Translations under genes and position numbers: made by a program | The notes under the pieces: generated by a model | Seen by the model: the letters and a program-made list of their open reading frames with translations, nothing else | What the model was told of the DNA's origin: nothing | Database searches by the model: none | In this document: positions 8,609-44,995 of the stretch, piece after piece | How positions within the stretch are numbered: the stretch's first letter is position 1 | Layout: each line of letters opens with the position of its first letter | Assembly: GCA_018607135.1 (NCBI GenBank) | Contig: JABBCA010000042.1 | Location: 1-64,000, forward strand | DNA from: Opitutales bacterium | GTDB taxonomy: Bacteria > Verrucomicrobiota > Verrucomicrobiia > Opitutales > Coraliomargaritaceae | Length of the DNA stretch: 64,000 nucleotides | Direction of reading: 5' to 3'

Positions 8609-8669
8609 AAATGAGAAAGCGTTCTTTAGAGGGCACGTGATTTTAAATGCGTTTAAACCTACTGATTCG

Positions 8670-11600: not shown

Positions 11601-12854
11601 CCAACGCAATTTCACAGCTTAAGTTATGATGTAAAGGGCGATGACGAGGATTTCTACATATTGAGCAGTCAAGATGGTTTCGCTAGCATGGACGCCTTGC
11701 TCGTTGTTCCACAAACAGTAAGCGTCGACGGTATCGTTTATTCACATACCCTTTGGTTGACTGATTTTGCTGAGATGGCAGTGGGGGGCTCTGTAGAGTT
11801 TCGCTTATATTATGACACTAGCAAAACCATTGGTGAACAATGGATAGATAACATCCGTTTAACCAAAGTAGTCGATTACGATATCGGTGCTACAACTGCT
11901 CCCACTAGCCTTGTCGCCATTGCTGAAGCAGGCGGTTCGATTAATTTGACTTGGGACGTTTCAACGGATCCAGAAATAGTGAGCTATACTATTTTCCGGT
12001 CGACTGAATCTGGCGTCTACGGAGCTCCTCTTTCATCAGTAATTGATAGCCAATATCAAGACCTTACAGCTGTTGCAGGCACGCGCTACTACTACACTGT
12101 GTGCGCGGTCAATGGTGATGGCGATACGACTGCTAATAGTGCTGAGGCAACCGCGATGGCACTTAGCTTGAGTCCAGTCTTCGTGAACGATCCCAGTGAA
12201 CTGCCCAACGCCGTAGTGGGGCAGATCTACGGAGCACATTTGAGCGGACTCGTCATCGGTGGTAGTACCTCTGATCTCAGTTATTCACTACTCAGTGGCC
12301 CTAGCTGGCTAACTGAGACGGTCGATGGCCACTTAAGCGGACAACCAGCAGTGAGTGATCTCGGCATCAATCAATGGGTCGTCGAAGTAAGTAACAGCTC
12401 TGGCGCTAACGATCAAGCCAACCTACAAATTGTAGTCAGCCAACCAGCCGACCTCGACCTAGATAGCATCCAAGATGGTTGGGAGCTCCTGAACTTTGGT
12501 GCGATCAACTATTCCGACGGCTCGTTGGATAGCGATGGTGATGGGGTGCTCGACTTCTTTGAGTATCTTTTTGGGTCGATTCCGATAGATGCCTCCAGTC
12601 GCGGCTCGCAGCTACTGGTGTCTCCTAGCGAAGATGAGTCAGGAATGGTCTTTAAATGGGCGGTTAAGCCGGGTTCTGTGATTGGTGTCGATTATGGAGT
12701 GGAGATTTCAGCCGACCTGAGTGGCTCTTGGGGGCCGCTCCCAGAAGCACATTATTCGATCGAAGCGATGACTTCAAATGGTCAAACTAAAATCGAATTG
12801 AGCCTCACTCACGATTATGGTTCGACGGTTTTCATTAAACTCACACGTCTATAG
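8670..12854 (+). CDS. Large secreted modular protein: right-handed beta-helix (Pectate_lyase_3-like), CBM96/DNRLRE-like, FN3, putative-Ig repeats, beta-domain, EF-hand-like C-terminal module
   Basis: ORF 8637-12854 (GTG); ATG at 8670 gives signal peptide MPIPKHFLTCLLLSNSILPVSAQ. FGAIPDDGIDDSQAFIDAIAACPDNHAVYVPNGRY lyase_3-like motif; repeated FN3 YNVYRS...YYYRV; C-terminal LDSDGDGVLDFFEYLFGS. Confidence 0.85.
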   Translation: MPIPKHFLTCLLLSNSILPVSAQVYSDLWGSDGQLWDPATSRLADFTDVGYMNGAVAIPDWPVGVDVTDAQFGAIPDDGIDDSQAFIDAIAACPDNHAVYVPNGRYTILQQIIPDRDHFVLRGEDMYDTILFFPKNLNEVIIQEIGYDPLDPDKRNTGAPKGFFRVDAGIERSIENLTFEFREQRKMGHWEHKGADAIFYGGTATHSWVRNIYIKNADHGVMMGGASQISFLNLILDHFIGRPDIDGSSGTLRWAGHIGINMGSAEKCLYHNIEFKGSYFHDFDIINVPNGNVVSNVKGPSVSLHHHGTGAKNNLYTNVDAGSNEFYGEGNVGTKTVSDSNQQENETHWRIYAEEPLLSGGIPLTTQNNHVFVGYGADVDTTITPTLWQESIDPAELYPQNIYLAQLQHPSIQKPLPEAAPSQPPSAFTGDLVCINSVENNRTRSSAPDTVQDFTSNTFSSTDDLFFKFDLSGLSLDSIAHVRLRVTSVKFINAPLSIAAYSAGDTWSQDSLTYNNQPSAIAELDVVEITEDSTAQVLEFDVTQFVQSEYAGDKVVTLSLKRTSGDGFLSSIRGNYSGLAPELLIEQVPSPVPGAPSAPEGMKAESLIGNIRLDWDDNPESDVATYNVYRSVTSSGLNDYSYPIATGLVTSDFVDIDSVGNWRVGLMQNDQVYFYRVTAVDSHGYESESSAEFVGVPLDPANNPPAFDESVISLPAGKEGQLYTDTLASGASDTEGDDMYFFKVDGPSWLTVAYDGSLSGTPQLTDAGLNRFTVQITALGGRDEVEVEILVDANTVFPGPPQTPLGFSARVGDRSVFLDWGDSIDIDFSSYTVYRSTQSGSIGIALAEGLTGSDLLDLDVENGLTYYYRVRAYDTAGNTSLYSQEVIARPMADKSVSIAEYDFTSRDLVSVDLDSSSIASDLNDGGGLSFAIETRTFGSPGTFGNPPPSLRWKNVDANNGVILDDDYISFTLSGVTEPTQFHSLSYDVKGDDEDFYILSSQDGFASMDALLVVPQTVSVDGIVYSHTLWLTDFAEMAVGGSVEFRLYYDTSKTIGEQWIDNIRLTKVVDYDIGATTAPTSLVAIAEAGGSINLTWDVSTDPEIVSYTIFRSTESGVYGAPLSSVIDSQYQDLTAVAGTRYYYTVCAVNGDGDTTANSAEATAMALSLSPVFVNDPSELPNAVVGQIYGAHLSGLVIGGSTSDLSYSLLSGPSWLTETVDGHLSGQPAVSDLGINQWVVEVSNSSGANDQANLQIVVSQPADLDLDSIQDGWELLNFGAINYSDGSLDSDGDGVLDFFEYLFGSIPIDASSRGSQLLVSPSEDESGMVFKWAVKPGSVIGVDYGVEISADLSGSWGPLPEAHYSIEAMTSNGQTKIELSLTHDYGSTVFIKLTRL
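12107..12388. repeat. 282 bp perfect direct repeat, copy 1
   Basis: Identical to 29189-29470 (offset 17082); flanks diverge on both sides. Confidence 0.9.
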
Positions 12855-14366
12855 ATGAGGATTCAAGTTTTATTACGAATTTACTGTCTGTTGAGCGCAC
12901 TAGCCTGCGCGATGCCTCTCGTAGCATTTGCGGATACCGGTGGCGCAGACGCAAAACCGCTGTCGGACAGTCGACCGAATATCATTTTTGTCCTATGCGA
13001 TGACCTTGGCTACGGGGATGTCCAATGCCTCAACCCTGAGAATGGAAAAATTCCCACCCCAGCGGCGGACACGTTGGCGAGCCAGGGGATGATTTTTACC
13101 GATGCGCATTCGGGCTCATCGGTCTGCACGCCCACGCGCTACGGTCTGATGACAGGCCGTTATAGCTGGCGCACTTCTTTGCAACGTGGAGTTGTTAAGG
13201 GGTTTGCGCCGAACTTGATTGCAGAGGATCGCCCAACTGTCGCTAGCTTTTTGAAAAAACAAGGCTACCATACTGCGATTATCGGGAAGTGGCATCTCAA
13301 CTTTCAGTATGTGGATCCAGTCAGCGGTGAAGTTTTAGATTTGGAAGATTGGAAGCAGGGGCCGCCGGTTGGCTCGATGATTCCTGATGGTCCCTTGACC
13401 CGCGGTTTCGATTATTATCATGGTTTTCATCACGCTAGGCACATGAAAGCGGTGATTGCGAATGATCGCGTGCTCGAACAGGATGCAGAAATCAACATGC
13501 TGCCGCGGCTGGCCGAGAAGGCGGTCGAATATATTGACCAACGCGCCCAGGATACTTCGGAGCAGCCGTTCTTTTTGTATTTACCTCTAGGCTCACCTCA
13601 CACTCCGATTGTGCCTAGCGCTGAGTGGCAGGGCAAAAGCGAATTAGGCAGTTATGGTGATTTCGTCATGCAGACTGATGCCGCACTCGGAGCCGTGATC
13701 GAGGCGTTGCATCGCAATGGCATGACTGAGAACACGCTCCTTATCTATACCAGTGACAATGGTTGTTCAAAAGCCGCTAAGATTGATGCCCTCAGAAATA
13801 AGGGGCACTTGGTAAGCGCACAATTTCGTGGTTCGAAGGCCGACTTATGGGAGGGCGGGCATCGTGTGCCATTTATTGTTCGCTGGCCTGGAATGGTAGA
13901 GGCGGCGACTCTAACGGATCAACTCATATGCCTGACCGATTTCTTTGCTACCGTAGTGGACATCATTGGTGCTGAGTTACCCGCTGGCTCATGTGAAGAT
14001 AGTGTAAGCTTTTTACCAAGTTTCTCTGGCCAGCCGGTGATCAGCGAACGAAAAAGTATTATTCATCATTCGATTTCTGGACATTTTAGCTATCGAGAAG
14101 ATAAGTGGAAGCTGCTACTAGCTCGTGGATCTGGCGGTTGGACTTCGCCAAAGGAAAGCGAGGCTAAGACCGCACCTGAGGCACAGCTTTATAACTTAGA
14201 TGCGGATCCCTCGGAGGCGAAAAATCTCTATCAGTCACATCCCGAGATCGCAAATCGTTTGCTCCATCAACTCGAGTCTTATGTATTCAGCGGTCGGAGC
14301 ACACATGGAGTCGATTCTCCAAATGATTTCAAAGCTATAGAACTTTGGAAAAGTGGAAGAGATTGA
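12855..14366 (+). CDS. Secreted sulfatase
   Basis: ATG directly follows the TAG of the upstream gene. SRPNIIFVLCDDLGYGDVQ, CTPTR, GKWHLN, YTSDNGCSK. Confidence 0.95.
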   Translation: MRIQVLLRIYCLLSALACAMPLVAFADTGGADAKPLSDSRPNIIFVLCDDLGYGDVQCLNPENGKIPTPAADTLASQGMIFTDAHSGSSVCTPTRYGLMTGRYSWRTSLQRGVVKGFAPNLIAEDRPTVASFLKKQGYHTAIIGKWHLNFQYVDPVSGEVLDLEDWKQGPPVGSMIPDGPLTRGFDYYHGFHHARHMKAVIANDRVLEQDAEINMLPRLAEKAVEYIDQRAQDTSEQPFFLYLPLGSPHTPIVPSAEWQGKSELGSYGDFVMQTDAALGAVIEALHRNGMTENTLLIYTSDNGCSKAAKIDALRNKGHLVSAQFRGSKADLWEGGHRVPFIVRWPGMVEAATLTDQLICLTDFFATVVDIIGAELPAGSCEDSVSFLPSFSGQPVISERKSIIHHSISGHFSYREDKWKLLLARGSGGWTSPKESEAKTAPEAQLYNLDADPSEAKNLYQSHPEIANRLLHQLESYVFSGRSTHGVDSPNDFKAIELWKSGRD

Positions 14367-14430: not shown

Positions 14431-15957
14431 ATGAAGTGGATACAACTTACACACCTTACTTGCTTGTTCCTTTTATTAACCAGCGCGAGCTGCGCAGAAG
14501 TGAAACAATTGGCGGGTAGTCGGCCAAATATCATTTTCATTCTCACGGATGATCAGGGGATGGGAGACCTTTCCTGTATGGGCAACCCGATTTTGAAGAC
14601 ACCGCATATCGACCGGCTCTATGCACAATCGTCGCGGTTCACAGATTTTCACGTCAGCTCAACTTGTTCGCCAACGCGTGCGGCACTCATGAGCGGTCGC
14701 CGTCCGTTCGAAGTGGGTGTGACACATACCATTCTACAGCGTGAGCGATTAGCGCTCGATGTAGTCACGCTGCCTGAGACGTTAAAGACGGTCGGTTACA
14801 GCACGGGACTTTTTGGAAAGTGGCACCTCGGAGACGAGCCAGCGTATCTGCCGCAGAATCGAGGTTTCGATGAGGTGCTCATGCACGGTGCCGGTGGAAT
14901 CGGCCAATATCAGTGGGGCGACTTTCAGGCCAATACCGAGAGCACTTACTTCAATAGCGTGCTTCTCCACAACGATACTGTCGTAAAAACAGAGGGCTTT
15001 TGCACAGATCTATTTTTCGATGCTGCCTTGGCTTGGATGCATCAACTGCACGAAAATGATGAGCCTTACTTCGCATACATTTCGCTGAATGCGCCACATC
15101 GCCCGCTGATCGCACCCGAATCTTACAAGCAACGCTTTTTGGAGATGGGCTATACAGAGAGCTCGGCCGCTCGCTATGGTATGATCGAGAATATTGATGA
15201 TAATGTAGGAGAACTATTGTCCGAGCTGGCTGAATGGAATGCTCTGGAAAATACGCTGATCATCTTTATGACGGACAATGGGATGGCGGGGCGAATGCTT
15301 GATAAGCAAGACGGCTCGAAAGAGCTTGCTTTCAATGCGGGTATGCGGGGTGGCAAGGCCTCGCCCTTTGAAGGTGGCAGTCGTGTGCCTTCGTTTTGGT
15401 ATTGGCAGGGGCGGATCAATGCGGGGGTTGATGTTACGGATTTGACCGCGCACATAGACGTGTATCCGACCTTGGCGGAACTCGCTGGTGCCACGTTGCC
15501 TGAGGGTGATTTTGCGCCAATGGGTCGCTCCATGCTGCCGCTTTTCGAAGATTCTCAGGCCGAATGGCCAGAGCGAACACTCTTCTTGCATCGTGGCCGC
15601 TGGGACGATTTTTGGTCGTCACTGAGCCGGGAAGAGAGCCGCTATAATAAAGCTGCTGTGCGGACAGATCGTTGGCGTCTTGTTTTTGAACTAGAAAACG
15701 GCCAACCCAAAACCACGCTTTCGGATATAGACGTCGACCCGGGTGAAACAATCAATCTGGCGGGGGAATATCCAGAGGTTGTCGAAGAGTTGAAACAAGC
15801 CTTTGATCAGTGGTGGGATTTGACCGAGCCCTATCTTGTGAACGAGGGCTTGCCTCATATACCATCAGAGGCCCAGCCCTTTCCTCTATTGTATGAACAG
15901 CAAGTTAAAGAAAGCGGTCCGATCCCAGAGTGGGCTCCAGCTATTCATAGTAACTAA
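14431..15957 (+). CDS. Secreted sulfatase
   Basis: SRPNIIFILTDDQGMGDLSCMGNP, CSPTR, GKWHLGDEP, MTDNGMAGR; paralogue of 29937-31484. Confidence 0.95.
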   Translation: MKWIQLTHLTCLFLLLTSASCAEVKQLAGSRPNIIFILTDDQGMGDLSCMGNPILKTPHIDRLYAQSSRFTDFHVSSTCSPTRAALMSGRRPFEVGVTHTILQRERLALDVVTLPETLKTVGYSTGLFGKWHLGDEPAYLPQNRGFDEVLMHGAGGIGQYQWGDFQANTESTYFNSVLLHNDTVVKTEGFCTDLFFDAALAWMHQLHENDEPYFAYISLNAPHRPLIAPESYKQRFLEMGYTESSAARYGMIENIDDNVGELLSELAEWNALENTLIIFMTDNGMAGRMLDKQDGSKELAFNAGMRGGKASPFEGGSRVPSFWYWQGRINAGVDVTDLTAHIDVYPTLAELAGATLPEGDFAPMGRSMLPLFEDSQAEWPERTLFLHRGRWDDFWSSLSREESRYNKAAVRTDRWRLVFELENGQPKTTLSDIDVDPGETINLAGEYPEVVEELKQAFDQWWDLTEPYLVNEGLPHIPSEAQPFPLLYEQQVKESGPIPEWAPAIHSN

Positions 15958-15975: not shown

Positions 15976-17514
15976 ATGAACTCTATTCGAACGCTCATTT
16001 GTTTTCTTGGTCTACTCGCCGTTGTGTCAGGCTGCGTTCATAAGAGAGATCAATCAACAGCATGGGAGATTGTGAGCCACGAAGATTGGCAAAGGTCTGT
16101 CGCCGAGAGTGAAGGTGTTGAAATCACTGATGGGCTATTAAGCCCGATTGGAAAGACGGGTTCTTATCGCAGTCAACTGAATCGTTTTAGCGATCTGCAG
16201 ACACTTGAATCTCTGACCATCTCGCAGTCCTCGGTCTGGCAAAATTGGACGGCAGTGGATAAAGTAGCGCCGTCGAATTTACAAGACGCCCCCGTTTTTC
16301 TCGCGCTGGGTTCTCAGAATTATTGGATATTTGGCCGTTACGGTAAGCCTGAAGTGACTGGATTTGTGGGTGCAGATGTAGAGCTAGAAGGGTTTGACAT
16401 TCCGTTAAAAACGACGCCGTTTCCAAAGCAATATGATGCACCGGGGGGATTAAAGCCAAGTATGGACGGTTACCACGCTTGGCAAAGCCGCGATATGATT
16501 CATTGGGTGCACCACGGTCCGGTTTCAGATCGCCGGGCACGATGGGTCACGACTGCTGAGTATGTAAATGGTAAAACGTATATCTACTATGACTTTCCAA
16601 ATGATCAGGATCCGCATCTGCTGATTGATAATGATTTGACCGATGGTATGCCTGGAACGGACATGGGAATGGTTTTTAAAGATCCTTCAGATGGCTCGGA
16701 CATTGCCATAATTCGGGATGAGTCGGGTCAGTTTCACTTGATTTACGAGGACTGGAGTCCGGTCCATGCGGGTGCGCATTCCTGGGACTCGCCGTTGGCG
16801 GGTCATGCTGTGAGTGCCGACGGAATGGGCGACTTCAAGATTCTTGATCCGGTCATCGATGAGCGGACGCAGCCGACAGGTGTTTTTAAGGAGTATGCCC
16901 ACCCGCACTGGTATCGTGACGATCCAGCAAATTATCAGGGTAAGCCAACTAAGAAGGGAGAGTTCAGAGCGTTTGCGCGCTATGAAGTGCATGAGCCCGA
17001 ACAGAATGCCTATGGTGATTGGGCTTCGATTAAAATTGGCGGACAGTATTATCTCTTCGGTGACTTTCATCCTGCGGGCACAAAGCTTCGTTCCGAGATG
17101 CAGATCGCTTGGTTCACCGCTACGAATATCGACGGTCCCTTCGAGCCTTGTGGATCGATTGGTAGTGGGCATCCCGATCCAGATATCGGTTTTGCCGAGG
17201 GCCGCTTTTATCTGATCAATCAAACTAACAACGATTATGTAAGCCCGGGTCCTTGGGTCGAATCGGTCGAGGTTCGTGTTGGAGTGGATACGACAAACGA
17301 TGGTCAAGTGGATGTCTGGAGTGGTTGGCAGTCGGTGCGCGAAACTTATGACTACGTGGAAGGCTTTGCTAAGCAGATCAGTCGTGCTCCAGCGTCGATC
17401 GAAACCAGTCAGTTGCCAAAAGGTTATGGCTTTTGTTTTGAACTGCGAATCGAAGACCAGACCGAGAATAGTTCTAAGCCTGTTTTGGATTCGGTTAGAC
17501 TTAGCTTTAATTAG
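15976..17514 (+). CDS. Lipoprotein with GH43/GH117-like five-bladed beta-propeller
   Basis: Lipobox LAVVSGCV; MDGYHAWQSRDMIHWVHHGPV, TYIYYDFPND, GQFHLIYEDWSP, KIGGQYYLFGDFHPAG propeller-type motifs. Confidence 0.6.
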   Translation: MNSIRTLICFLGLLAVVSGCVHKRDQSTAWEIVSHEDWQRSVAESEGVEITDGLLSPIGKTGSYRSQLNRFSDLQTLESLTISQSSVWQNWTAVDKVAPSNLQDAPVFLALGSQNYWIFGRYGKPEVTGFVGADVELEGFDIPLKTTPFPKQYDAPGGLKPSMDGYHAWQSRDMIHWVHHGPVSDRRARWVTTAEYVNGKTYIYYDFPNDQDPHLLIDNDLTDGMPGTDMGMVFKDPSDGSDIAIIRDESGQFHLIYEDWSPVHAGAHSWDSPLAGHAVSADGMGDFKILDPVIDERTQPTGVFKEYAHPHWYRDDPANYQGKPTKKGEFRAFARYEVHEPEQNAYGDWASIKIGGQYYLFGDFHPAGTKLRSEMQIAWFTATNIDGPFEPCGSIGSGHPDPDIGFAEGRFYLINQTNNDYVSPGPWVESVEVRVGVDTTNDGQVDVWSGWQSVRETYDYVEGFAKQISRAPASIETSQLPKGYGFCFELRIEDQTENSSKPVLDSVRLSFN

Positions 17515-24452: not shown

Positions 24453-26044
24453 TTAACGACTGCGTCCACTTAGTTTTGCGTCCTCCAGGAGCTCTTTAAG
24501 TTGCTTAACTTTTTCGGGGTAGAGGGCATGTAGATTCTTTGTCTCGCCGGGGTCTTCACAGAGATTGTAAAGTTGTGCTGGTGCATCGGGATCAGAATCT
24601 TCTTGGCGTAGAAAGGCCATTTTTTCTCTGCTGTAGTCGTTACCCCCAGAGCCTTGATGATCTAAATATTTCCAAGACTCTGTGCGTATGGCTAGCTCTA
24701 GCTTTTGAGTTTGATGCAGGATGAACGGGCGAATCGGTGTTCCCTCATCTTCGCCGATAAAAATACTAGAGAAATCGAAACTATCTTCTGCTGCATTCTC
24801 TGGTAACTCATAACCGACGATGCTCGCAAATGTATGCATCAAATCAGTTTGGCAAAAGGCCTGTTTGATTACCCGATTCGTTTTGATTCGGGCAGGCCAT
24901 TGAACTAGAAACGGAACTCGGTGACCACCTTCCCATTGGTCTCTTTTGACCCCGCGCCAGGGGTGGGCACCGTTGTGGCCGAATTGTTTTTGCATATTGT
25001 CTACTGTCTGAACCTCGGGGCCGTTGTCACTGGTCACAATAATCAGGGTGTTCTCAGCGATCCCCAACTGCTCGACAGCTTCGACAATTTTGCCGACAGT
25101 ATAATCAAATTGAAATATAAAGTCTCCGTGGGGACCCGCTTCGGTTTTGCCCTTCATTGATTTTGAAGGTAAGGAAGGTAAATGGACCGCCTGAGCCGAA
25201 TGAAATAGAAAGAAGGGTTGATTGGGATGAACCATAACTTGATTTTCTAGGAAGGCTAAACTTTTTTCTAAAAAGACCATGTCGACTTCTTCGAAGTCAA
25301 AATCGGGAGCGGCGAGGCCTGCTCGGAAATCCCGAGACCATGGATGCTGAGGCCAGTCCTCACGCACTCGGACACTCTCAGGGAGTGTTTGAACGCGGTC
25401 TCCATCAATGTATGTGTAGAGCCAATCCGTCGTGGGGCAGGAAACAGTCCCAAAAAATGGTCAAAGCCATGATCGAGTGGGCCATCCGCTATGGGGCGCG
25501 AAAGATCGGTATGCTCAATTAAGGGAATTCCGCGCTCATCGCAGGTTTCGTAGACAGGTCTGCCATCGTGATCGAGGAAAGTCATGCCGATATGCCATTT
25601 ACCCATCAATGCGGTGCGATAACCGACTTGCTGTAACATCTCAGGCAGTGTTAAGCGTTCATTCTTAATTAGGCAGGGGCCTTCAACACCAGTAAAGACA
25701 CCACGGAAATTGAGACGAAACGGCATGCGTCCGGTCATCACTGCATAGCGTGAGGGGGTGCAGACGGTGGCCGCGCTGTGGGCGTCTGTGAATTTTAAGC
25801 CTTCAGCAGCGAGACGATCCATGTGTGGAGTCGTCACCTTGGAGTCTGGGTTGTAGCTGCTGACGTCTCCATATCCCAGATCATCGGCGTAAATGAGAAT
25901 AATATTTGGATGATTCGTAGCGGAGACGACGGCTAGTAATCCAAAAAAGAATAGGTGAATATAATAGAAGTGTTTCATCATGATTGAGGGTTCATAGATT
26001 TTAGTTGGGCACATCCTTCGAGAGGGAACTCCAAAACGCGGCAC
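24453..26044 (-). pseudogene. Sulfatase split by a single-nucleotide frameshift (N-terminal part within 25268-26044, C-terminal part 24453-25367 and upstream)
   Basis: N-terminal piece has [30 protein letters not shown]. Restoring one base in the A6 tract at 25452-25457 (plus strand) rejoins ...FDHFFGTVSCPTTDWLYTYIDGDRVQTLPESVRVREDWPQHPWSRDF... Confidence 0.85.
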
Positions 26045-28538: not shown

Positions 28539-29188
28539 TTATTGAGACCAGTGGCGATCAATGATGAGCTGTATTTCTGGATATGCTGTATCGGTCTCAT
28601 CCAGATCTGCGCGAAGCGCTAGAAGCTGTAACTTCATTTCAACAATGATTGCTTTATAGTTAGGATCTCCGTAACGATTGTTCATTTCTTGAGGATCCGT
28701 TTTGAGATCATAAAACTCCCAGGCAGCTGGTGTCTGTGGGGTCGGTGGCCTTCCCGAGTTGTTGAAGTCGAGCCCGTAGAAGAAGATCAGCTTGTAGCGC
28801 TCACTGCGAACACCGAAGTGAGCTGGAACTTCCAAATTGTGCGCCAGATGCATCCAGTAGCGGTAGTAGGTAAACTTGAGCCAGTCGTCAGGCTTTGGGG
28901 CGTCGCTGAGCGCTGTTGCAAAGCTTTTACCCTGCATATATTCTGGTCTGCTTGCTCCGGCTATTTCGAGGAGAGTGGGTGCAAAGTCGGTGTTGTTAAT
29001 GAGCCAGTCGTTTGTCTGCTGAGCCTGCCCTGACTCTGTCGAAGGGCAGGCGGTGATCCCATTCGGCCAGTGCATGATGAGCGGCATCCGAAAGGCTTCT
29101 TCATACATCCAGCGTTTATCCATCAGATTGTGCTCACCTAGAAAATAGCCTTGGTCGCCCGTGTAAACGATCAAGGTAGTGTCGAGTA
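28539..29188 (-). pseudogene. C-terminal half of a sulfatase, truncated at 29188/29189
   Basis: LLDTTLIVYTGDQGYFLGEHNLMDKRWMYEEAFRMPLIMHWPNG... is a sulfatase C-terminal half with no CxPxR half. The ORF N-terminus (29189-29321) is antisense of the adjoining repeat, matching antisense ORF 12036-12239. Confidence 0.88.
29023..29051. repeat. REP-like short palindrome inside the sulfatase remnant
   Basis: GCCTGCCCT-GACTCTGTCGA-AGGGCAGGC: 9 bp perfect arms, 11 nt loop. Confidence 0.6.
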
Positions 29189-29470
29189 GGTCAATGGTGA
29201 TGGCGATACGACTGCTAATAGTGCTGAGGCAACCGCGATGGCACTTAGCTTGAGTCCAGTCTTCGTGAACGATCCCAGTGAACTGCCCAACGCCGTAGTG
29301 GGGCAGATCTACGGAGCACATTTGAGCGGACTCGTCATCGGTGGTAGTACCTCTGATCTCAGTTATTCACTACTCAGTGGCCCTAGCTGGCTAACTGAGA
29401 CGGTCGATGGCCACTTAAGCGGACAACCAGCAGTGAGTGATCTCGGCATCAATCAATGGGTCGTCGAAGT
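29189..29470. repeat. 282 bp perfect direct repeat, copy 2
   Basis: Identical to 12107-12388. Homology continues to about 29936 with scattered differences; it stops abruptly on the left at 29189. Confidence 0.9.
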
Positions 29471-29936
29471 GAGCAACAGCTCCGGCTCTAGCGATCAGGC
29501 CAGCTTGCAAATTGTAGTCAGCCAGCCAGCCGACGTCGACGTTGATACCATCCAAGATAGTTGGGAGCTTCTGAACTTTGGTGCGATCAACTATTCCGAC
29601 GGCACGCTGGATAGCGATGGCGATGGAGTGCTCGACTTTTTTGAATATCTTTTTGGCTCGATTCCTACCGATGCGTCCAGTCGTGGCTCACAGCTTCTCG
29701 TCGCATTGAGCGTAGAAGGTTCAGGTCTGGTCTTTAAATGGGCGGTGAAGTCAGGCTTTGTGATTGGTGTTGACTATGGAGTTGAGGTCTCAGCCGACCT
29801 GAGTGGCTCTTGGAGTCCGCTTCCAGAGATGCATTATTCGCTCGAAGCGATAACTTTTAACGGTCAAACTGAAGTTGAATTAAGCCTCACTCATGACTAT
29901 GGTTCCAACGTTTTCATTAAACTTACACGTCTGTAG
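29189..29936 (+). pseudogene. Orphan C-terminal fragment of the 8670-12854 modular protein (duplicate)
   Basis: Encodes NGDGDTTANSAEATAMALSLSPVFVNDPSELPNAVVGQ...LDFFEYLFGSIPTDASSRGSQLL...HDYGSNVFIKLTRL; no N-terminal domains, no signal peptide. Confidence 0.85.
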
Positions 29937-31484
29937 GTGATGATTAAAATGTTATTGAGAAATGACTGCCTTTTAAGCGCAATAGCCTGCGCGATGCCTC
30001 TCCTAGCATTTGCGGATACAGGTGACGCAGAAGCCAAACCGCTGTCGGACAGTCGCCCGAATATCATTTTCATTCTCACGGATGATCAGGGGATGGGAGA
30101 CCTTTCCTGTATGGGCAATCGAATTTTGAAGACACCGCATATCGACCAGCTCTATGCGCAATCGACGCGGTTCACAGATTTTCACGTCAGCTCAACTTGC
30201 TCGCCTACGCGTGCAGCGCTCATGAGCGGTCGCCGACCGTTTGGGGTGGGAGTGACGCATACGATACTACAGCGAGAGCGATTGGCGCTCGATGTGGTCA
30301 CGCTGCCTGAAACTTTGAAAGAAGCTGGCTATGCAACAGGTCTTTTTGGTAAGTGGCACCTCGGAGATGAACTAACTTATCTGCCACAGAATCGAGGCTT
30401 TGATGAAGTGCTCATGCACGGTGCTGGTGGAATCGGCCAATATCGATGGGGCGACTTTGAGGCCAATACAGAGAACACTTACTTCAACAGCGTCCTTCTT
30501 CACAACGATACTGTCGTGAAAACAGAGGGCTTTTGTACGAATCTATTTTTCGATGCAGCCTTGTCTTGGATTCATCAACAGCACGAAAAGGTGGAGCCTT
30601 ACTTTGCTTACATCTCGTTGAATGCTCCCCATAGCCCTATGATCGCGCCGCAATCTTACAAGCAACGCTTTTTGGATATGGGCTATGCAGAAATCACGGC
30701 TGCACGCTATGGTATGATCGAGAATATTGATGATAACGTGGGGCGAATGATGTCTAAATTGTCTGAATGGCAGGCTCTGGAGAATACCCTCATCATCTTT
30801 ATGACCGACAATGGAATGGCGGGGCGGATGCTGGTTAAACAAGACGGTTCGAAAGAGCCTGCTTTCAATGCGGGTATGCGGGGTGGCAAGGCCTCACCCT
30901 TTGAAGGTGGCAGTCGTGTGCCTTCGTTTTGGTACTGGCAGGGGCGGCTCGATGCGGGGGTCGATATATCGGCTTTAACCGCGCATATAGACGTGTATCC
31001 GACACTGGCGGAACTCGCGGGTAGCGCGCTTCCTGAGGGTAATTTAGCGCCAATGGGTCGCTCCATGCTGCCACTTTTCGAAGATTCTCAGGCCGAATGG
31101 CCAGAGCGGACTCTCTTCTTACATCGTGGCCGCTGGGACGATTTCTGGTCGTCACTCAGCCGGGAAGAGAGCCGCTATAATAACGCAACCGTAAGGACCG
31201 ATCGTTGGCGTTTAGTGGTTGAGCTAAAAGACGGCGAACCAAAAACCACGCTTTCGGATATACGCAACGACCCGGGTGAAACAATCAATCTGGCCGGGAA
31301 ATATCCAGAAGTAGTTGAAGAGTTGAAACGAGCCTACGATCAATGGTGGGATTCGACCACGCCTTACCTTATCAACGAGGGTTTGCCCCAAATGCCCTCT
31401 GAGGCGCAGCCATTTCCTCGAATGTATGAGCAGCAAGTTAGAGAAAGCGGTCCGATCCCATACTGGACTCCAGGGTGCTTTTAG
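29937..31484 (+). CDS. Chimeric secreted sulfatase
   Basis: Leader (LLSAIACAMPLLAFADTGDAEAKPLSDSRPNIIF) matches the 12855 sulfatase; body (ILTDDQGMGDLSCMGN...CSPTR...) matches the 14431 sulfatase. Confidence 0.93.
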   Translation: MMIKMLLRNDCLLSAIACAMPLLAFADTGDAEAKPLSDSRPNIIFILTDDQGMGDLSCMGNRILKTPHIDQLYAQSTRFTDFHVSSTCSPTRAALMSGRRPFGVGVTHTILQRERLALDVVTLPETLKEAGYATGLFGKWHLGDELTYLPQNRGFDEVLMHGAGGIGQYRWGDFEANTENTYFNSVLLHNDTVVKTEGFCTNLFFDAALSWIHQQHEKVEPYFAYISLNAPHSPMIAPQSYKQRFLDMGYAEITAARYGMIENIDDNVGRMMSKLSEWQALENTLIIFMTDNGMAGRMLVKQDGSKEPAFNAGMRGGKASPFEGGSRVPSFWYWQGRLDAGVDISALTAHIDVYPTLAELAGSALPEGNLAPMGRSMLPLFEDSQAEWPERTLFLHRGRWDDFWSSLSREESRYNNATVRTDRWRLVVELKDGEPKTTLSDIRNDPGETINLAGKYPEVVEELKRAYDQWWDSTTPYLINEGLPQMPSEAQPFPRMYEQQVRESGPIPYWTPGCF

Positions 31485-37741: not shown

Positions 37742-40700
37742 ATGAAATTACCCCTATTATTGCTCGTTGCAGCAATCTTTGCCGTACCCGCTAGTCTAGT
37801 ACAGGCTGTTGAATCCCAATTATGGACTACCGATCAACAAGGCAACGTTACTTGGGACCCGCTCCTTAGAGACTTTACAACTGCAGGCTACATGGGTGGC
37901 AGCACTTTACCGGACTGGCCCGAGGGTGTCAATGTGACCGATCCTCTGTTCGGTGCAGTGCCAGACGATGGTTTGGACGACACTCAAGCATTTATAGATG
38001 CTATCGCCGCTTGCCCTAACTATCATGCGGTTTTCATTCCCAAGGGGCGGTATATTATTACGGATCAAATACAACCGTCACGTGATCACTTTGTGCTGCA
38101 AGGTGAGGATATGTATGAAACCGTTCTTTTTTTCCCGAAGTATATCAGTGAGATCGATATCTTGGAAGTGGGTTGGAACCCTGATTTCGGCGTCAGAAGT
38201 TTCGTGACAAGCGATGCCTTCATTGAAATGAATGGTGGGGTCGAGAAGAGTATAGAAAATCTCACGATTGCGTTTCGAGAGCAGAGAAAAGGGGGGCCGT
38301 GGGAATACCTAGGAGCAAACGCCGTACGCTATGATGGCGGAGTGTCGAACAGTTGGGTACGAAATGTTCGCTTGCGAAATTTTGACAGCGGGATCGCGGT
38401 CAACGCAGATAACACGACACTGCTTAATATCTATGCGGATCAGTTTAATGGCCGGCAGAGCATCGACGGGGATGTGAATGGAAAATTGGATGCATATTCT
38501 GCTATTTTGCCACGCAACTCTACCCACAATCTGTATCATAATATTGAGATAACGGGTCACTTACTGCAACCGGTTGATAACAATGAAGCTTCGTCCAATA
38601 GCGTATTTTCTAAGATCAGCACTGGCGAGATGAACAATCGTGTTGTCGGCCTGCATGGTGGCTCGACGCAATACCACCTCTACACTGAGTTAAACCGAGC
38701 GGTCTCCCGACATGATTCGGATGACCTGCATATGAGTTGGGCTGACTGCACTTACTGGAATGTTGATGCCGAGATTTCGGAGTGGGCTTGGATAAATTCA
38801 TCGAATCGAAGTATTTACGTGGGTTATGGGAATGATTGGGCCTACAAGTCCAATTCGTTGATCCATTATGAGCCAGCTGTCTACGGAGATATTATACCTC
38901 AAAACTTGTATCTCGCGCAATTGGACTATCTAGGCAAGCCAAGGCCGCAAGAGATCTCGTTTGCGGCAGCTTTCGAGGCGGCAGGAGATATCATTCGTAT
39001 CGCGCCTGCTGACGATATCACACCTGGCAACGATCCGGCGGGCCTTTTGGAGGTGAAGGATGCCTATTTTAAGTTTGATTTAACGGGAGCCAACGAGTCG
39101 AGTGTTGCCCGCGCTCGGCTACGTTTAACGATTAAAAGTATCGCCAACGCGCCCTTTGAGCTGAGTGCTTGGATGGTTACGGATGACAACTGGTCGGAGC
39201 AGATGCTGACCGCTGCCAATCGACCGGTTGCAGTTTCACCGCTTGATTCTCTATCGATTGAAGATGGCCAAGACGATCTGGTCGTTGAGTTCGATGTTAC
39301 GGAATTTGCACGCGACCAGTTGGTCGGGGGCGATGAAGTGATTTCGCTCTACGTAAATGTGACGGAAGGAAGCGGTTTTCTCACGAATTTTTGGAGTGGA
39401 GAAGTGGGGCCGAAGCCGGAACTTGTGATCGAGCGCACGGCGTCTTCCGTGGCGGGTGCGCCCAGTGCCCCTCAAGGAATCCGCAGCACGCCGCTGGTGG
39501 GTAATATTGTCTTGGACTGGGACGATAATCCCGAAGCGGATGTGGCGAGCTACAATGTGTATCGCAGTCCTTATTCGTATGGAAAGTTGCCAGCGGCGGG
39601 CGGCCTCGTGACTAGCGACCATGTGGACGTATCAAGCACGCCGGACTGGCACGTCGGTATGATGGATTATCGGCAGGTCTATCATTACTGGGTTACTGCG
39701 GTCGATGACCACGGCTATGAATCTCCAAGAAGCCAGGAGTTCGTTGCCGCTGTAGTGCATCCGTCCAATGACACGCCCGTCTTTAATGCGACGGTAACTT
39801 TAGATAATGCCACCGCTCGCGTGGCCTATAGTGACAATCTCTCGACAGAAGCGTCGGATACGGAATCTGATCAGATGTATTTTATGAAGGTATCTGGGCC
39901 GGACTGGCTGAATGTCGCACTCGACGGCACGCTGAGCGGCATGCCTGATTTGAGTGACGCTGGAAGTAACGAGTTTACATTCCAAGTGACGGCAATTGGC
40001 GGCAGCACCCAGAAGGTGGTGAATATACAGGTCGATCTGCCGACGGACTCTCCGGCTGGCGCTCCAGCTGCCCCAGCTAATTTCAACGCATCAGTCAGTG
40101 ACAGTCTGGTTGACCTCACTTGGAACAGTAATTCCGAAGCCGATATTTACGGCTACAACCTGTATCGCTCAACGAGCTCCGGCAGTCTCGGAAATTTGAT
40201 TGCGAGCGTGACTGGGACCAATGCTTTGAGTGACTCCACCGTTACGAACGATACCACTTACTACTACACACTGAAAGCGGTGGATACCAGTGATAACGAG
40301 TCCACGGGCTCGCAGACTTCTGCGACTCCGTCGGATCCTGATCCAGCACCGGTGGCTACCACCGGTCTGATTGCTACGGTCGGCGACTTTTTCGTGGATC
40401 TGCAATGGGATACCAACGAAGCGGGCGACCTCGCTGGCTACAATATTTACCGAACAGGCCTGTCCGGATACTACTACGGTGACCCGATTGCCACCAACGT
40501 GACTGGAACTACCTGGCGCGACAATACCGCAGAGAATGGTGCAACCTACTATTACGTAATCACTGCAATCGACAATGCTGGCAACGAATCACCGGTTAGT
40601 AATGAGGATTCTGCAACGCCATCGGACATTGCGCCGGAAGCGCCAACTAGCCTCTTTGCCATGGCACGAGACGGCGAGGTCTATTTACATTGGAACGTAA

Positions 40701-43700
40701 GCACCGATGTCGATCTTGCTAGATACAGCCTGTATCGCTCAACCACCTCTGGAAGTTATGGTAGTGCCATTGAGGAGAACATCACCTCAAACTCTTGGAC
40801 GGATAGTAGCTTGATTTCGAATGGAACAGTTTACTATTATACATTGAAGGCGGTTGATGCCAGTGCACAGCTATCCGCAGTAAGTAATGAAGTGTCCGCG
40901 ACTCCGCAGTCCGGCCTACAGTCGGCGTTGTTTATAGGCGAAGCGGTTTCCGGCGCTGCGGATAATCAAATCAGCACCACGCAGAACTGGGATGCTGGGC
41001 TGCCGATCGGCGGGCAAGGTGTCATAGCTATTGATGCTGGATTTGACAGTAATACTAGCCATAATGCTTACAACATTACACAGCTGGCAGGTACACTCTC
41101 ACGGGAGGGTGGGTTTAGCGGACTTTCGTTCGGTTCTGGGTCTGTTTGGCTGATGGATGGTCCGACGGCAGGGACCAACGCGATCAGGGGCCTCACTTTA
41201 AATAACGCGCAGTTCACCTTAAATGATGGGAATGTGGATTTGACTGCGAATAACAAAAACACGGTGATCAACGGTAGCAGCGCAAGCCTAAGCATGAATG
41301 GCGGCACGATGCTGATCGGGGCAGACCTGATTGTTCGAGGCGACGGTCAGCTCACCATCAATGGTGGCACAATTAGTGGAATTGATCAGATCCTCTGCTC
41401 GTTGACTGCACCGGGGCCAATCAGCTTTAACGGCGGAAGTATCACTGCGGATAATTTTCAATGCGATATACCAGCAACCATTACCTTTGGTGGAACTGCA
41501 GTAGGATCCTTGAAGCTTCTTGTAGGCTTGGGTAACGGAGCGACACTTGACTGGCTGACTGGCACAAAAATGTCGATGACGGTGGCTTCCGCTGATGAAT
41601 GGGCGGAAGCGGAGTGGAATGCAGATCGTCTGACTTACAACGGCCAGAACAAAACAGCGCTTGGTAAGACTTGGGCTCAAGTTACTGCGACCGACGGTCT
41701 TTCGTCCGGCATTCAGTTTACCTATGACAGCGCGACAGAAACGCTGGGGCTTTCTACCGCGACGGTGCAAAATCAGGCTCCGACCGCTGACGCGGGAGCC
41801 GATCAGACTGTAACGGATACGGACGACAACGGTAGTGAGAGTGTTACACTTGACGGGAGTGGCTCAACCGATCCGGGTGGCTCGATTGTCAGCTACGAGT
41901 GGAGCGAGGGCGGTAGCCAAATCGCAACAGGCGTGAATCCATCGGTTGATTTGGCTGCGGGTTCGCACACGATTACGCTGACAGTGACTGATGACGGGGG
42001 TGCGACAGGCACCGATACGGTGGACGTTACTGTCAATGCGAATAGTCCTCCAACGCAGGTTGTAGTGGGCTATTATCCCTTTAATGGTAGTAGTCTGGCA
42101 TCTACGGATTCTGATGCCGACAGTGTTGCCGGAAATATGGTGGTCGGTGCAGGCGTGACGACATTTAACTGGGAAACCCGAGGTTTTTGGTCTCCGACCC
42201 AACCATCTGCGGCCTTCAATGCAGGAGTCGATTTCGCGGATGGAGTGGTTCAGGATAATGATTATTTTTCATTCACAGTCACACCTGAAGCAGGGGTGAG
42301 CGTAGACCTTGCCTCCCTTACGTTTATTGACCGTTCAGGTGGTTTTTCCGTCTCGGTTGCAACGGACCAGGATGGTTTCGCAACTGTGCTCGATAGCGTT
42401 GTGGCTGCGGGTTCTTGGGCGACCAATACCTTGGATCTGTCTTCCCTTGCCGACGTAAGTGGTGCGATTGAGATTCGTCTCTACTTCCACAATGGCAGTG
42501 GCGATCCTAGGATGATCGACAACGTTACGATCAATGCAAACGCAGCATTACCGAATGTGGCTCCGACCGCTGATGCGGGTGCCGACCAGACGGTTACTGA
42601 CAGCGACGACAACGGCATCGAGAGCGTGTCGCTTGACGGCAGTGCTTCTAACGATCCGGATGGATCCATCGTCAACTACGTATGGAGCGAGGGCGGTAGC
42701 CAAATCGCAACTGGTATTAATCCATCGGTCGACTTTGCTGTAGGCTCGCACGCGATCACTCTGACAGTGACCGACGACGAGGGGGCGACTGGCACCGATA
42801 TCGTTTTGGTCACCGTAGCAGAGGCACCCGTTACTGCAGTGGTTGCATATTACCCTTTTAATATCAGTAGTTCGGCTTCTACGGATTCTGATATCAATAC
42901 CGTTGCCGGAGACATGGTAGTCGGTGCAGGCGTGACTACATTTAACTGGGAAACCCGAGGTTTTTGGTCTCCGACCCAGCCATCTGCGGCGTTCAATGCA
43001 GGAGTCGATTTCGTCGATGGAGTGATTTTGGACGATGATTATTTTTCATTCACCATTACACCTGAAGCAGGGGTGAGCGTAGACCTTGCCTCTCTTTCAT
43101 TCATTGACCGTTCCGGTGGTTTTTCCGTCTCGGTTGCAACAGACCAAGATGGTTTTGCAACTGTGGTCGATAGCCTTGTGGCTGCGGGCTCGTGGGTGAC
43201 CAATACCTTAGACCTGTCTTCCCTTGCAACTACAAGCAGTGCGATTGAGGTTCGTCTCTACTTCCACGATGGCAGTGGCAATCCAAGGATGATCGATAAT
43301 GTTGAAATCATCGCAAACATCGGTTCCGGATCCGGGTCGAATGTGGCTCCGACTGCGAATGCGGGTGCCGACCAGACGGTGACGGACACGGACGACAACG
43401 GCAGCGAGAGTGTGTCGCTTGACGGCAGTGCCTCGACCGATACGGATGGTTCAATCGTCAGCTATGTCTGGAGCGAGGGCGGTAGCCAGATTGCTACCGG
43501 CATCAATCCATCGGTCAGCCTGGCCGTAGGCTCGCACACCATCACTCTGACAGTGACCGATAACGAGGGCGCAACAGGCACCTCTACAGTAGATATTACT
43601 GTAGAGGCAGCACATCCAATTACACATGTGCCAAGCAGTCAAATTGCAGTCGATGGAACGGTCTCTGGTTCACTCGCTGATGTGAGTTTAAGCGATAACA

Positions 43701-44995
43701 CCTACCAAAGCATAACCGAGGTCAATAGCAGCAATTCTTCTATACTTGAGCATGTTTGGATCTTCAATGTAACCGGAGATGAAGTGGTGACCTTCTATGT
43801 CGAAGCTCATCATACGGCCAACTCCGAGGGTGACGACTTTGTCTTCGCTTACTCAACGGACGACGTAAACTATTACGAGATGGTCACCGTGACTAAGACC
43901 TCGGATGACAACTCAGCGCAATACTTTGCATTGCCGAGTGGTCTAAGTGGCACGGTTTACGTCTCGGTGCAGGATACGGATACCACTGCTGGTAATACGC
44001 AGTTGGATACGCTCTATATCGATGAACTCGTGATCGAGTCCGAAAGCAGTAGCGTCGCACCTAGCGCTGCAGCGATTCCGTTGCCGGTAGACGGTGCGCA
44101 AAACGTCGCCACCGATGCCCAACTGAGCTGGACAGCTGGACTCTACACCGCCTCGCACGATGTTTACTTCGGCACCAATCCAAGCCCTGCGTTTCAAGGC
44201 AATCAAGCCGGCGCGAGCTTTGACCCTGGCGCCCTTCTGGATGCGACGACTTACTACTGGTCGATTGCCGAAGTGAATAATACTGGCACAACGGCAGGTT
44301 CTGTTTGGTCATTTACGACGGAAGACAGCTTGGCACCTGATGTCTTGCACTGGACTTTTGATGCCGGTAGCGGCACAACGACCACGGATGACTCGGGTAA
44401 CGCGCGCGACGGCACTATCAACGGTGCGAGCTGGTCGACGGACACGCCAGACGGTAGTGGATACGCTCTAGCCTTTGCCAATGGTGACTTCATCGAAGAT
44501 GTAGATGCTGGCAATTACCTCAATGGATTAGGTGCCATTACCATAGCCATGTGGGTTAAGTCCGACACTACAAATACCGATAATGGTTTCTTTAGTACTA
44601 ATAACCAGAACGGCCAAGATAATCAGTTTGCAGGGCGTTACGACAAGTCTGGCTGGGCCGGCGGCGGGACAGATGTGATCAAGGTCTCGGTTTCCACCAC
44701 GGGTGGTGTCTCTTCATTGGAAAGTGCCAGCAATGTTCAAAGCACTAGTTGGCAGCACATCACCATAACATGGTCGAATGCTGGATCGCTGAAATTATAT
44801 ATAGACGGTGTGGAAACGTCGTATACGGATGCGCCTGCGAGTGTCAGCGGCACGATCAACAATGTGGCTACGCTCGTTGTAGGTAAGGGCACGAAAGACG
44901 GTGGCGGTTCTAAAGGTTGGTCAGGTTTAATTGATAATGTGCGCATCTACTCACGCGCACTCTTACCAACTGAAGTTCAAGCATTGGCCCAATAG
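37742..44995 (+). CDS. Giant secreted modular protein: beta-helix (Pectate_lyase_3-like), CBM96/DNRLRE-like, FN3 array, beta-strand repeat region, PKD and beta-domain repeats, LamG-like C-terminus
   Basis: 2417 aa. N-terminus LFGAVPDDGLDDTQAFIDAIAACPNYHAVFIPKGRY parallels 8670-12854; FN3 YNLYRSTSSGS; three PKD (APTADAGADQTVTDTDDNGSES...SHTITLTVTD); LamG-like NYLNGLGAITIAMWVKSD...GLIDNVRIYSRAL. Confidence 0.9.
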   Translation: MKLPLLLLVAAIFAVPASLVQAVESQLWTTDQQGNVTWDPLLRDFTTAGYMGGSTLPDWPEGVNVTDPLFGAVPDDGLDDTQAFIDAIAACPNYHAVFIPKGRYIITDQIQPSRDHFVLQGEDMYETVLFFPKYISEIDILEVGWNPDFGVRSFVTSDAFIEMNGGVEKSIENLTIAFREQRKGGPWEYLGANAVRYDGGVSNSWVRNVRLRNFDSGIAVNADNTTLLNIYADQFNGRQSIDGDVNGKLDAYSAILPRNSTHNLYHNIEITGHLLQPVDNNEASSNSVFSKISTGEMNNRVVGLHGGSTQYHLYTELNRAVSRHDSDDLHMSWADCTYWNVDAEISEWAWINSSNRSIYVGYGNDWAYKSNSLIHYEPAVYGDIIPQNLYLAQLDYLGKPRPQEISFAAAFEAAGDIIRIAPADDITPGNDPAGLLEVKDAYFKFDLTGANESSVARARLRLTIKSIANAPFELSAWMVTDDNWSEQMLTAANRPVAVSPLDSLSIEDGQDDLVVEFDVTEFARDQLVGGDEVISLYVNVTEGSGFLTNFWSGEVGPKPELVIERTASSVAGAPSAPQGIRSTPLVGNIVLDWDDNPEADVASYNVYRSPYSYGKLPAAGGLVTSDHVDVSSTPDWHVGMMDYRQVYHYWVTAVDDHGYESPRSQEFVAAVVHPSNDTPVFNATVTLDNATARVAYSDNLSTEASDTESDQMYFMKVSGPDWLNVALDGTLSGMPDLSDAGSNEFTFQVTAIGGSTQKVVNIQVDLPTDSPAGAPAAPANFNASVSDSLVDLTWNSNSEADIYGYNLYRSTSSGSLGNLIASVTGTNALSDSTVTNDTTYYYTLKAVDTSDNESTGSQTSATPSDPDPAPVATTGLIATVGDFFVDLQWDTNEAGDLAGYNIYRTGLSGYYYGDPIATNVTGTTWRDNTAENGATYYYVITAIDNAGNESPVSNEDSATPSDIAPEAPTSLFAMARDGEVYLHWNVSTDVDLARYSLYRSTTSGSYGSAIEENITSNSWTDSSLISNGTVYYYTLKAVDASAQLSAVSNEVSATPQSGLQSALFIGEAVSGAADNQISTTQNWDAGLPIGGQGVIAIDAGFDSNTSHNAYNITQLAGTLSREGGFSGLSFGSGSVWLMDGPTAGTNAIRGLTLNNAQFTLNDGNVDLTANNKNTVINGSSASLSMNGGTMLIGADLIVRGDGQLTINGGTISGIDQILCSLTAPGPISFNGGSITADNFQCDIPATITFGGTAVGSLKLLVGLGNGATLDWLTGTKMSMTVASADEWAEAEWNADRLTYNGQNKTALGKTWAQVTATDGLSSGIQFTYDSATETLGLSTATVQNQAPTADAGADQTVTDTDDNGSESVTLDGSGSTDPGGSIVSYEWSEGGSQIATGVNPSVDLAAGSHTITLTVTDDGGATGTDTVDVTVNANSPPTQVVVGYYPFNGSSLASTDSDADSVAGNMVVGAGVTTFNWETRGFWSPTQPSAAFNAGVDFADGVVQDNDYFSFTVTPEAGVSVDLASLTFIDRSGGFSVSVATDQDGFATVLDSVVAAGSWATNTLDLSSLADVSGAIEIRLYFHNGSGDPRMIDNVTINANAALPNVAPTADAGADQTVTDSDDNGIESVSLDGSASNDPDGSIVNYVWSEGGSQIATGINPSVDFAVGSHAITLTVTDDEGATGTDIVLVTVAEAPVTAVVAYYPFNISSSASTDSDINTVAGDMVVGAGVTTFNWETRGFWSPTQPSAAFNAGVDFVDGVILDDDYFSFTITPEAGVSVDLASLSFIDRSGGFSVSVATDQDGFATVVDSLVAAGSWVTNTLDLSSLATTSSAIEVRLYFHDGSGNPRMIDNVEIIANIGSGSGSNVAPTANAGADQTVTDTDDNGSESVSLDGSASTDTDGSIVSYVWSEGGSQIATGINPSVSLAVGSHTITLTVTDNEGATGTSTVDITVEAAHPITHVPSSQIAVDGTVSGSLADVSLSDNTYQSITEVNSSNSSILEHVWIFNVTGDEVVTFYVEAHHTANSEGDDFVFAYSTDDVNYYEMVTVTKTSDDNSAQYFALPSGLSGTVYVSVQDTDTTAGNTQLDTLYIDELVIESESSSVAPSAAAIPLPVDGAQNVATDAQLSWTAGLYTASHDVYFGTNPSPAFQGNQAGASFDPGALLDATTYYWSIAEVNNTGTTAGSVWSFTTEDSLAPDVLHWTFDAGSGTTTTDDSGNARDGTINGASWSTDTPDGSGYALAFANGDFIEDVDAGNYLNGLGAITIAMWVKSDTTNTDNGFFSTNNQNGQDNQFAGRYDKSGWAGGGTDVIKVSVSTTGGVSSLESASNVQSTSWQHITITWSNAGSLKLYIDGVETSYTDAPASVSGTINNVATLVVGKGTKDGGGSKGWSGLIDNVRIYSRALLPTEVQALAQ
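41777..43608 (+). repeat. Tandem PKD + beta-domain coding repeats (two full units plus a third PKD)
   Basis: Units begin GCTCCGAC at 41777, 42560, 43346. Long near-identical stretches, e.g. ACATTTAACTGGGAAACCCGAGGTTTTTGGTCTCCGACCCA. Confidence 0.85.

Follow-up and report, generated by a model that had tools for sequence, protein, structure and literature searches.

A probable two-layer mosaic of sulfatase genes in a putative fucan-type polysaccharide locus of an Opitutales bacterium

Genes and repeated blocks in the window

The window (the whole stretch of DNA analysed here, 64,000 nucleotides) belongs to a 3.53-Mb draft genome of 106 contigs that is rated 99.98% complete. The features on which the analysis turns are as follows.

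8637-12854 (+): modular protein M1, pectate-lyase/epimerase-like, with CBM96/DNRLRE, fn3 and He_PIG by Pfam and NCBIfam
12107-12854 (+): 3' end of M1, the 12-kb repeat copy within that gene (self-BLAST)
12855-14366 (+): sulfatase S1 (gene 12855), the proposed chimera, with a family-typical body but a leader/linker, KPLSDSRPNIIF, typical of the other sulfatase family
14431-15957 (+): sulfatase S2 (gene 14431), with its own S2-type leader, KQLAGSRPNII
15976-17514 (+): GH43-like gene, whose relatives adjoin S1 relatives in some other genomes
28539-29188 (-): S3, a sulfatase remnant of the C-terminal 217 residues only; the catalytic N-terminal half is absent
29189-29470 (+): 282-bp tract 100% identical to M1 12107-12388 (mismatch list); its left edge is a non-homologous junction with S3
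29238-29936 (+): M2, a second modular gene truncated to its tail, with no signal peptide seen
29937-31484 (+): sulfatase C (gene 29937), GTG start with an alternative ATG at 29940; leader as in 12855, body paralogous to 14431
30060-30070 (+): similarity switch, AATATCATTTT, coding NIIF and common to all three sulfatase genes
31473 (+): right repeat edge, in the final codons of gene 29937 (self-BLAST)

Because the window also has four alpha-L-fucosidases, a GH95 enzyme, more sulfatases and a SASA esterase, it appears to resemble a locus for a sulfated, fucose-rich (fucan-type) polysaccharide. Near relatives of these proteins are found mainly in Verrucomicrobiota, the others in Kiritimatiellota, Planctomycetota and Bacteroidota. 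Genes 12855, 14431 and 29937 are complete formylglycine-type sulfatase genes with a PF00884 domain and an N-terminal PNII/DD motif, and the formylglycine motif C/S-x-P-x-R reads CSPTR in 29937 and 14431 and CTPTR in 12855. By its domain score (162.4 bits against a gathering cut-off of 25) and this motif, 29937 falls among the Type I (S1) sulfatases and is predicted to hydrolyse sulfate esters. The nearest solved structures by sequence are the iota-carrageenan sulfatase PDB 6bia / 6b0j for 29937 and PDB 7oze, 6s20 and 9bau (the last named S1_15B) for 12855. The three products share the sulfatase domain and the C-S/T-P-T-R and PNII/DD motifs with Family S1 formylglycine sulfatases, whose solved members are too distant to fix a substrate; what is unusual here is the pairing of leaders with bodies.

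Self-BLAST of the window aligned 29189-30070 with 12107-12988 (882 bp, gapless, 89.2% identity) and 30026-31473 with 14493-15940 (1449 columns, 86.4% identity), both in direct orientation and both with E-values of 0, which rule out chance similarity. These alignments agree with the sequence-only reading, which had matched 29189-30060 to 12107-about 12985 and the DNA from about 30071 to about 14531-15940. The offset is 17,082 bases for the first match and 15,533 for the second, and therefore about 1.55 kb of the 12-kb copy is missing at 29 kb. In a scan of sites at which 29937 matches one paralogue only, a run specific to the 12.9-kb gene was followed by a run specific to the 14.4-kb gene, and the best breakpoint lay between 30059 and 30071, flanked by 7 discordant sites on one side and 8 on the other; this is where the earlier reading had put the switch (inside 30060-30070, in the NIIF codons of SRPNIIF). 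At this point, identity to the 12.9-kb copy drops from about 0.9 to about 0.3 and identity to the 14.5-kb copy climbs from about 0.2-0.5 to 0.94. The closest paralogue thus changes abruptly along 29937, as in a recombinant (chimeric) gene, and this gene was not seen to be uniformly closest to one paralogue, the outcome that would have spoken against the earlier reading. Self-alignment likewise upheld its proposal of a dispersed duplication and of one leader shared by two different sulfatase bodies. In the 12-kb and 29-kb copies alike, the M stop codon is immediately followed by the sulfatase start codon. No third copy of the repeat was found elsewhere in the 3.53-Mb genome, plasmid records gave no match to the block, and no target-site-like repeat, one mark of a transposon-borne duplication, was seen at the repeat borders, in a window of which some ORFs were scanned for transposases.

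Outside the first 282 bp, dS was 0.61 (0.45-0.90) in the M tail, 0.37 (0.16-0.65) in the leader and 0.49 (0.39-0.61) in the sulfatase body, and both the M tail and the sulfatase body had a dN/dS of about 0.15. The dS intervals overlap, as expected for duplication of a single block, except in the 282-bp identical tract. Because both segments have similar dS and dN/dS is low, the data fit one old duplication, after which both copies would have been under purifying selection. The claim that one block was copied is thus supported by the similar dS of its two parts; the account that contained it had missed a probable more recent event at the left border, which would have left the 282-bp tract and the truncated M2 and S3.

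Left border of the 29-kb copy

The left border of the 29-kb copy lies inside the minus-strand S3 and truncates M2, and the identical tract starts exactly where S3 is cut. Divergence from M1 of about 16% sets in abruptly at 29471; at that level, 282 identical bases would have a chance of about 1e-22. The remainder of the M2 tail (29471-29936) is 16% divergent from M1 with a dN/dS of about 0.15, and because this headless tail still looks constrained, the truncation of M2 was probably recent. S3 relatives are 520-560 residues long, against the 217 C-terminal residues kept in S3. No close copy in the genome was found for either the N-terminal half of S3 or the N-terminal part of the second M. Clean insertion of the block into S3, with the other half of that gene to the right of the block, was ruled out, as no S3 N-terminal half lies there or elsewhere.

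We infer that a break repaired recently, with the 12-kb copy as template and with joining into S3, accounts for the tract and both cut genes in one event. Alternatively, the border at 29189 and the tract may be assembly artefacts from a misjoin at a repeat in the 106-contig draft. Two genes are cut exactly at the border, and an exact 282-bp repeat is a typical misjoin spot for short-read assemblies. However, no repeat that could cause a misjoin lies at the S3/M junction, and for neither missing half, of M2 or of S3, was a close copy found elsewhere in an assembly of such high completeness. We regard an assembly error at this border as possible but improbable. It would concern the left border only, is compatible with any model of the switch and would leave the switch at 30060-30070 unaffected.

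As separate observations, the ORF called at 28539-29321 (-) runs 44 codons beyond the S3 remnant into the M tail in antisense, and its annotation would give S3 a false N-terminus. The matched frame of an S3 relative in a same-genus genome (L144, G001 C29) is reported to contain a single in-frame TAG.

Leaders and bodies of the three sulfatase genes

Because the window alone cannot tell which gene is the hybrid, we compared the residues that immediately precede the PNII motif among relatives, at most 71% identical, of both sulfatase families. The shared leader of 12855 and 29937 ends KPLSDSRPNIIF (linker KPLSDSRPN), and a close S2-family relative, L019, reads KPLEGSRPNIIF. An L-x-x-SRPN linker was present in 20/24 relatives of the 14431/29937 family at >=55% identity (29937 itself excluded) and in 11 of 13 at >=60% identity, and in 0/31 relatives of the 12855 (S1) family, whose proteins mostly carry K/R-PN directly behind the signal peptide. 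A Fisher test of this split gave p of about 1e-8 to 2e-11 and the linker likelihood ratio was about 50, both of them overstated because the relatives share ancestry. Gene 12855 is the sole S1-family member bearing the linker; a search of 373 genomes of the order found no S1-family relative with it.

In a tree of the bodies, 29937 and 14431 were sisters (100/100) with equal branches, and 12855 grouped with the S1 family (100/100). The nearest relative of 29937 is 14431, at 86% amino acid identity over the body. Departures from family-conserved residues numbered 2 in 29937, compared with 8 in 14431, so 29937 does not look like a degraded copy; its residue 202, invariant in 27 relatives, is changed from D to N.

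Since the linker is typical of the 29937/14431 family and absent from that of 12855, the shared leader is probably S2-type, with 29937, probably a natural S2-type gene, carrying its native leader and 12855 being the hybrid with a foreign one. The polarity argument turns on one short linker. It would reverse the earlier assignment of 29937 as the derived chimera, which required a leader native to the 12855 family, and it does not favour the proposed loss of 1.5 kb after a block copy. In four relatives, the S1 gene adjoins a GH43-like gene like that at 15976, which hints at an old association of these two genes that was later interrupted by S2, without fixing the order of events. Adjacency of S1 and S2, sought among relatives as an outgroup for polarity, was not found. 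The block is absent from the other 2 members of the genus (n = 3 including this genome) and from 43 other members of the family (n = 44 including this genome), and therefore a direct outgroup with the pre-event arrangement is lacking.

Origin of the mosaic and its setting

The best explanation, and one that we consider likely, is a mosaic of two layers in a fucan-type polysaccharide locus. In the older layer, a pair consisting of modular protein M and an S2-type sulfatase would have been duplicated over a distance of about 17 kb, which gave the copies at 12 kb and 29 kb. In the first of these, the S2-type leader would then have been fused in frame to the unrelated S1 body at the conserved SRPNIIF codons, giving gene 12855, with the 12-kb S2 body (14431) placed behind a separate S2-type leader; 29937 would retain the original combination of leader and body. 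All three genes are predicted to make exported formylglycine-type sulfatases, and the swap would alter the export leader and the translational junction with the M stop codon that drive the S1 body. In the recent layer, a break at the 29-kb copy would have been repaired with M1 as template over at least 282 bp, and the end would then have been joined inside the opposite-strand S3, so that M2 and S3 were each cut short. The repeats, their divergences, the switch point, the family-specific linker, the identical tract and the missing halves are observations; the order of these events and the repair mechanism are our reconstruction. Its left border rests on the 106-contig draft assembly and is less secure, and the model needs a donor for the inserted body and the second leader, for which none was found.

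Gain of a body at 12 kb is favoured over a 1.5-kb loss at 29.9 kb. In the latter case, the 12.1-15.9 kb block would have been copied whole and a stretch of about 1.54 kb, from one sulfatase 5' end to the other, deleted through AATATCATTTT, making 29937 the chimera. For this, a single copying step and a simple deletion at short direct repeats suffice, and the similar dS in both segments and the collinear order of the block agree with it; a deletion between 11-bp repeats is also mechanically simpler than the two-layer explanation. However, the leader of 12855 would have to be native to the S1 family, in which none of the relatives compared has the linker that is so frequent in the S2 family; nor does this model account for the 282-bp identical tract or the cut S3. 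We therefore consider such a deletion unlikely. The linker data and a single block copy could be reconciled if an S2-type leader had first come to the S1 body, duplication had then copied the block in full, and a deletion at 29 kb had happened to restore an S2-type leader to an S2-type body. This sequence of three steps takes one event more than the two-layer explanation, and the search of the order yielded no S1-family relative with the linker; we give it little credence.

Chimeric genes arise by duplication plus in-frame recombination between paralogues, and gene conversion or break repair acts between repeated copies. As in the former, the switch lies at a short shared stretch, the frame is kept and the copies are under purifying selection; unlike them, the switch here falls at the end of the export leader and the catalytic bodies stay whole. 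The 282-bp tract, free of differences next to sequence that is 16% divergent and with a non-homologous junction at its end, resembles the latter, repair being the proposed mechanism. The kind of event, duplication and then recombination between paralogues, is well known and ordinary in genome evolution. The locus nevertheless offers a clear example of how a sulfatase-rich polysaccharide locus may diversify, with a gene pair copied and export leaders swapped at a conserved motif. Alignment within the window alone had singled out 29937, probably wrongly, which cautions that the hybrid among three mosaic genes is better identified by comparison with outside families.

Neither other leader swaps nor leader-involving duplications were found among 16 sulfatase stretches of the same genome and the window, so that leader swapping is confined to this case in the sulfatase regions examined. 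Titles and abstracts of the literature on sulfatase chimeras held nothing relevant. It is a rather doubtful proposition that the SRPNII codons form a natural recombination joint at which sulfatase-rich bacteria exchange export leaders between unrelated bodies; if true, such a joint would change where a body is sent and leave catalysis intact.

Other features of the window and genome were also recorded. At 24453-26044 (-), the overlapping ORFs 25268-26044 and 24453-25367 encode the N-terminal and the C-terminal half, respectively, of a single sulfatase and differ in frame, reflecting either a frameshifted pseudogene or a sequencing error. Within a PKD-domain protein of 2417 residues (37742-44995), direct repeats of about 1 kb with 79-81% identity lie at 41776-43602. 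Elsewhere in the genome (G000), a 552-bp repeat, 98% identical, is shared by C43:257218-257769 and C61:12580-13130 (L183, L192); it lies near the end of contig C43 and may be the repeat that ended the assembly there. Finally, the N-terminal half of one sulfatase, used as a query, matched 48 places genome-wide, and therefore the genome has several dozen sulfatase genes, many of them clustered on contig C43.
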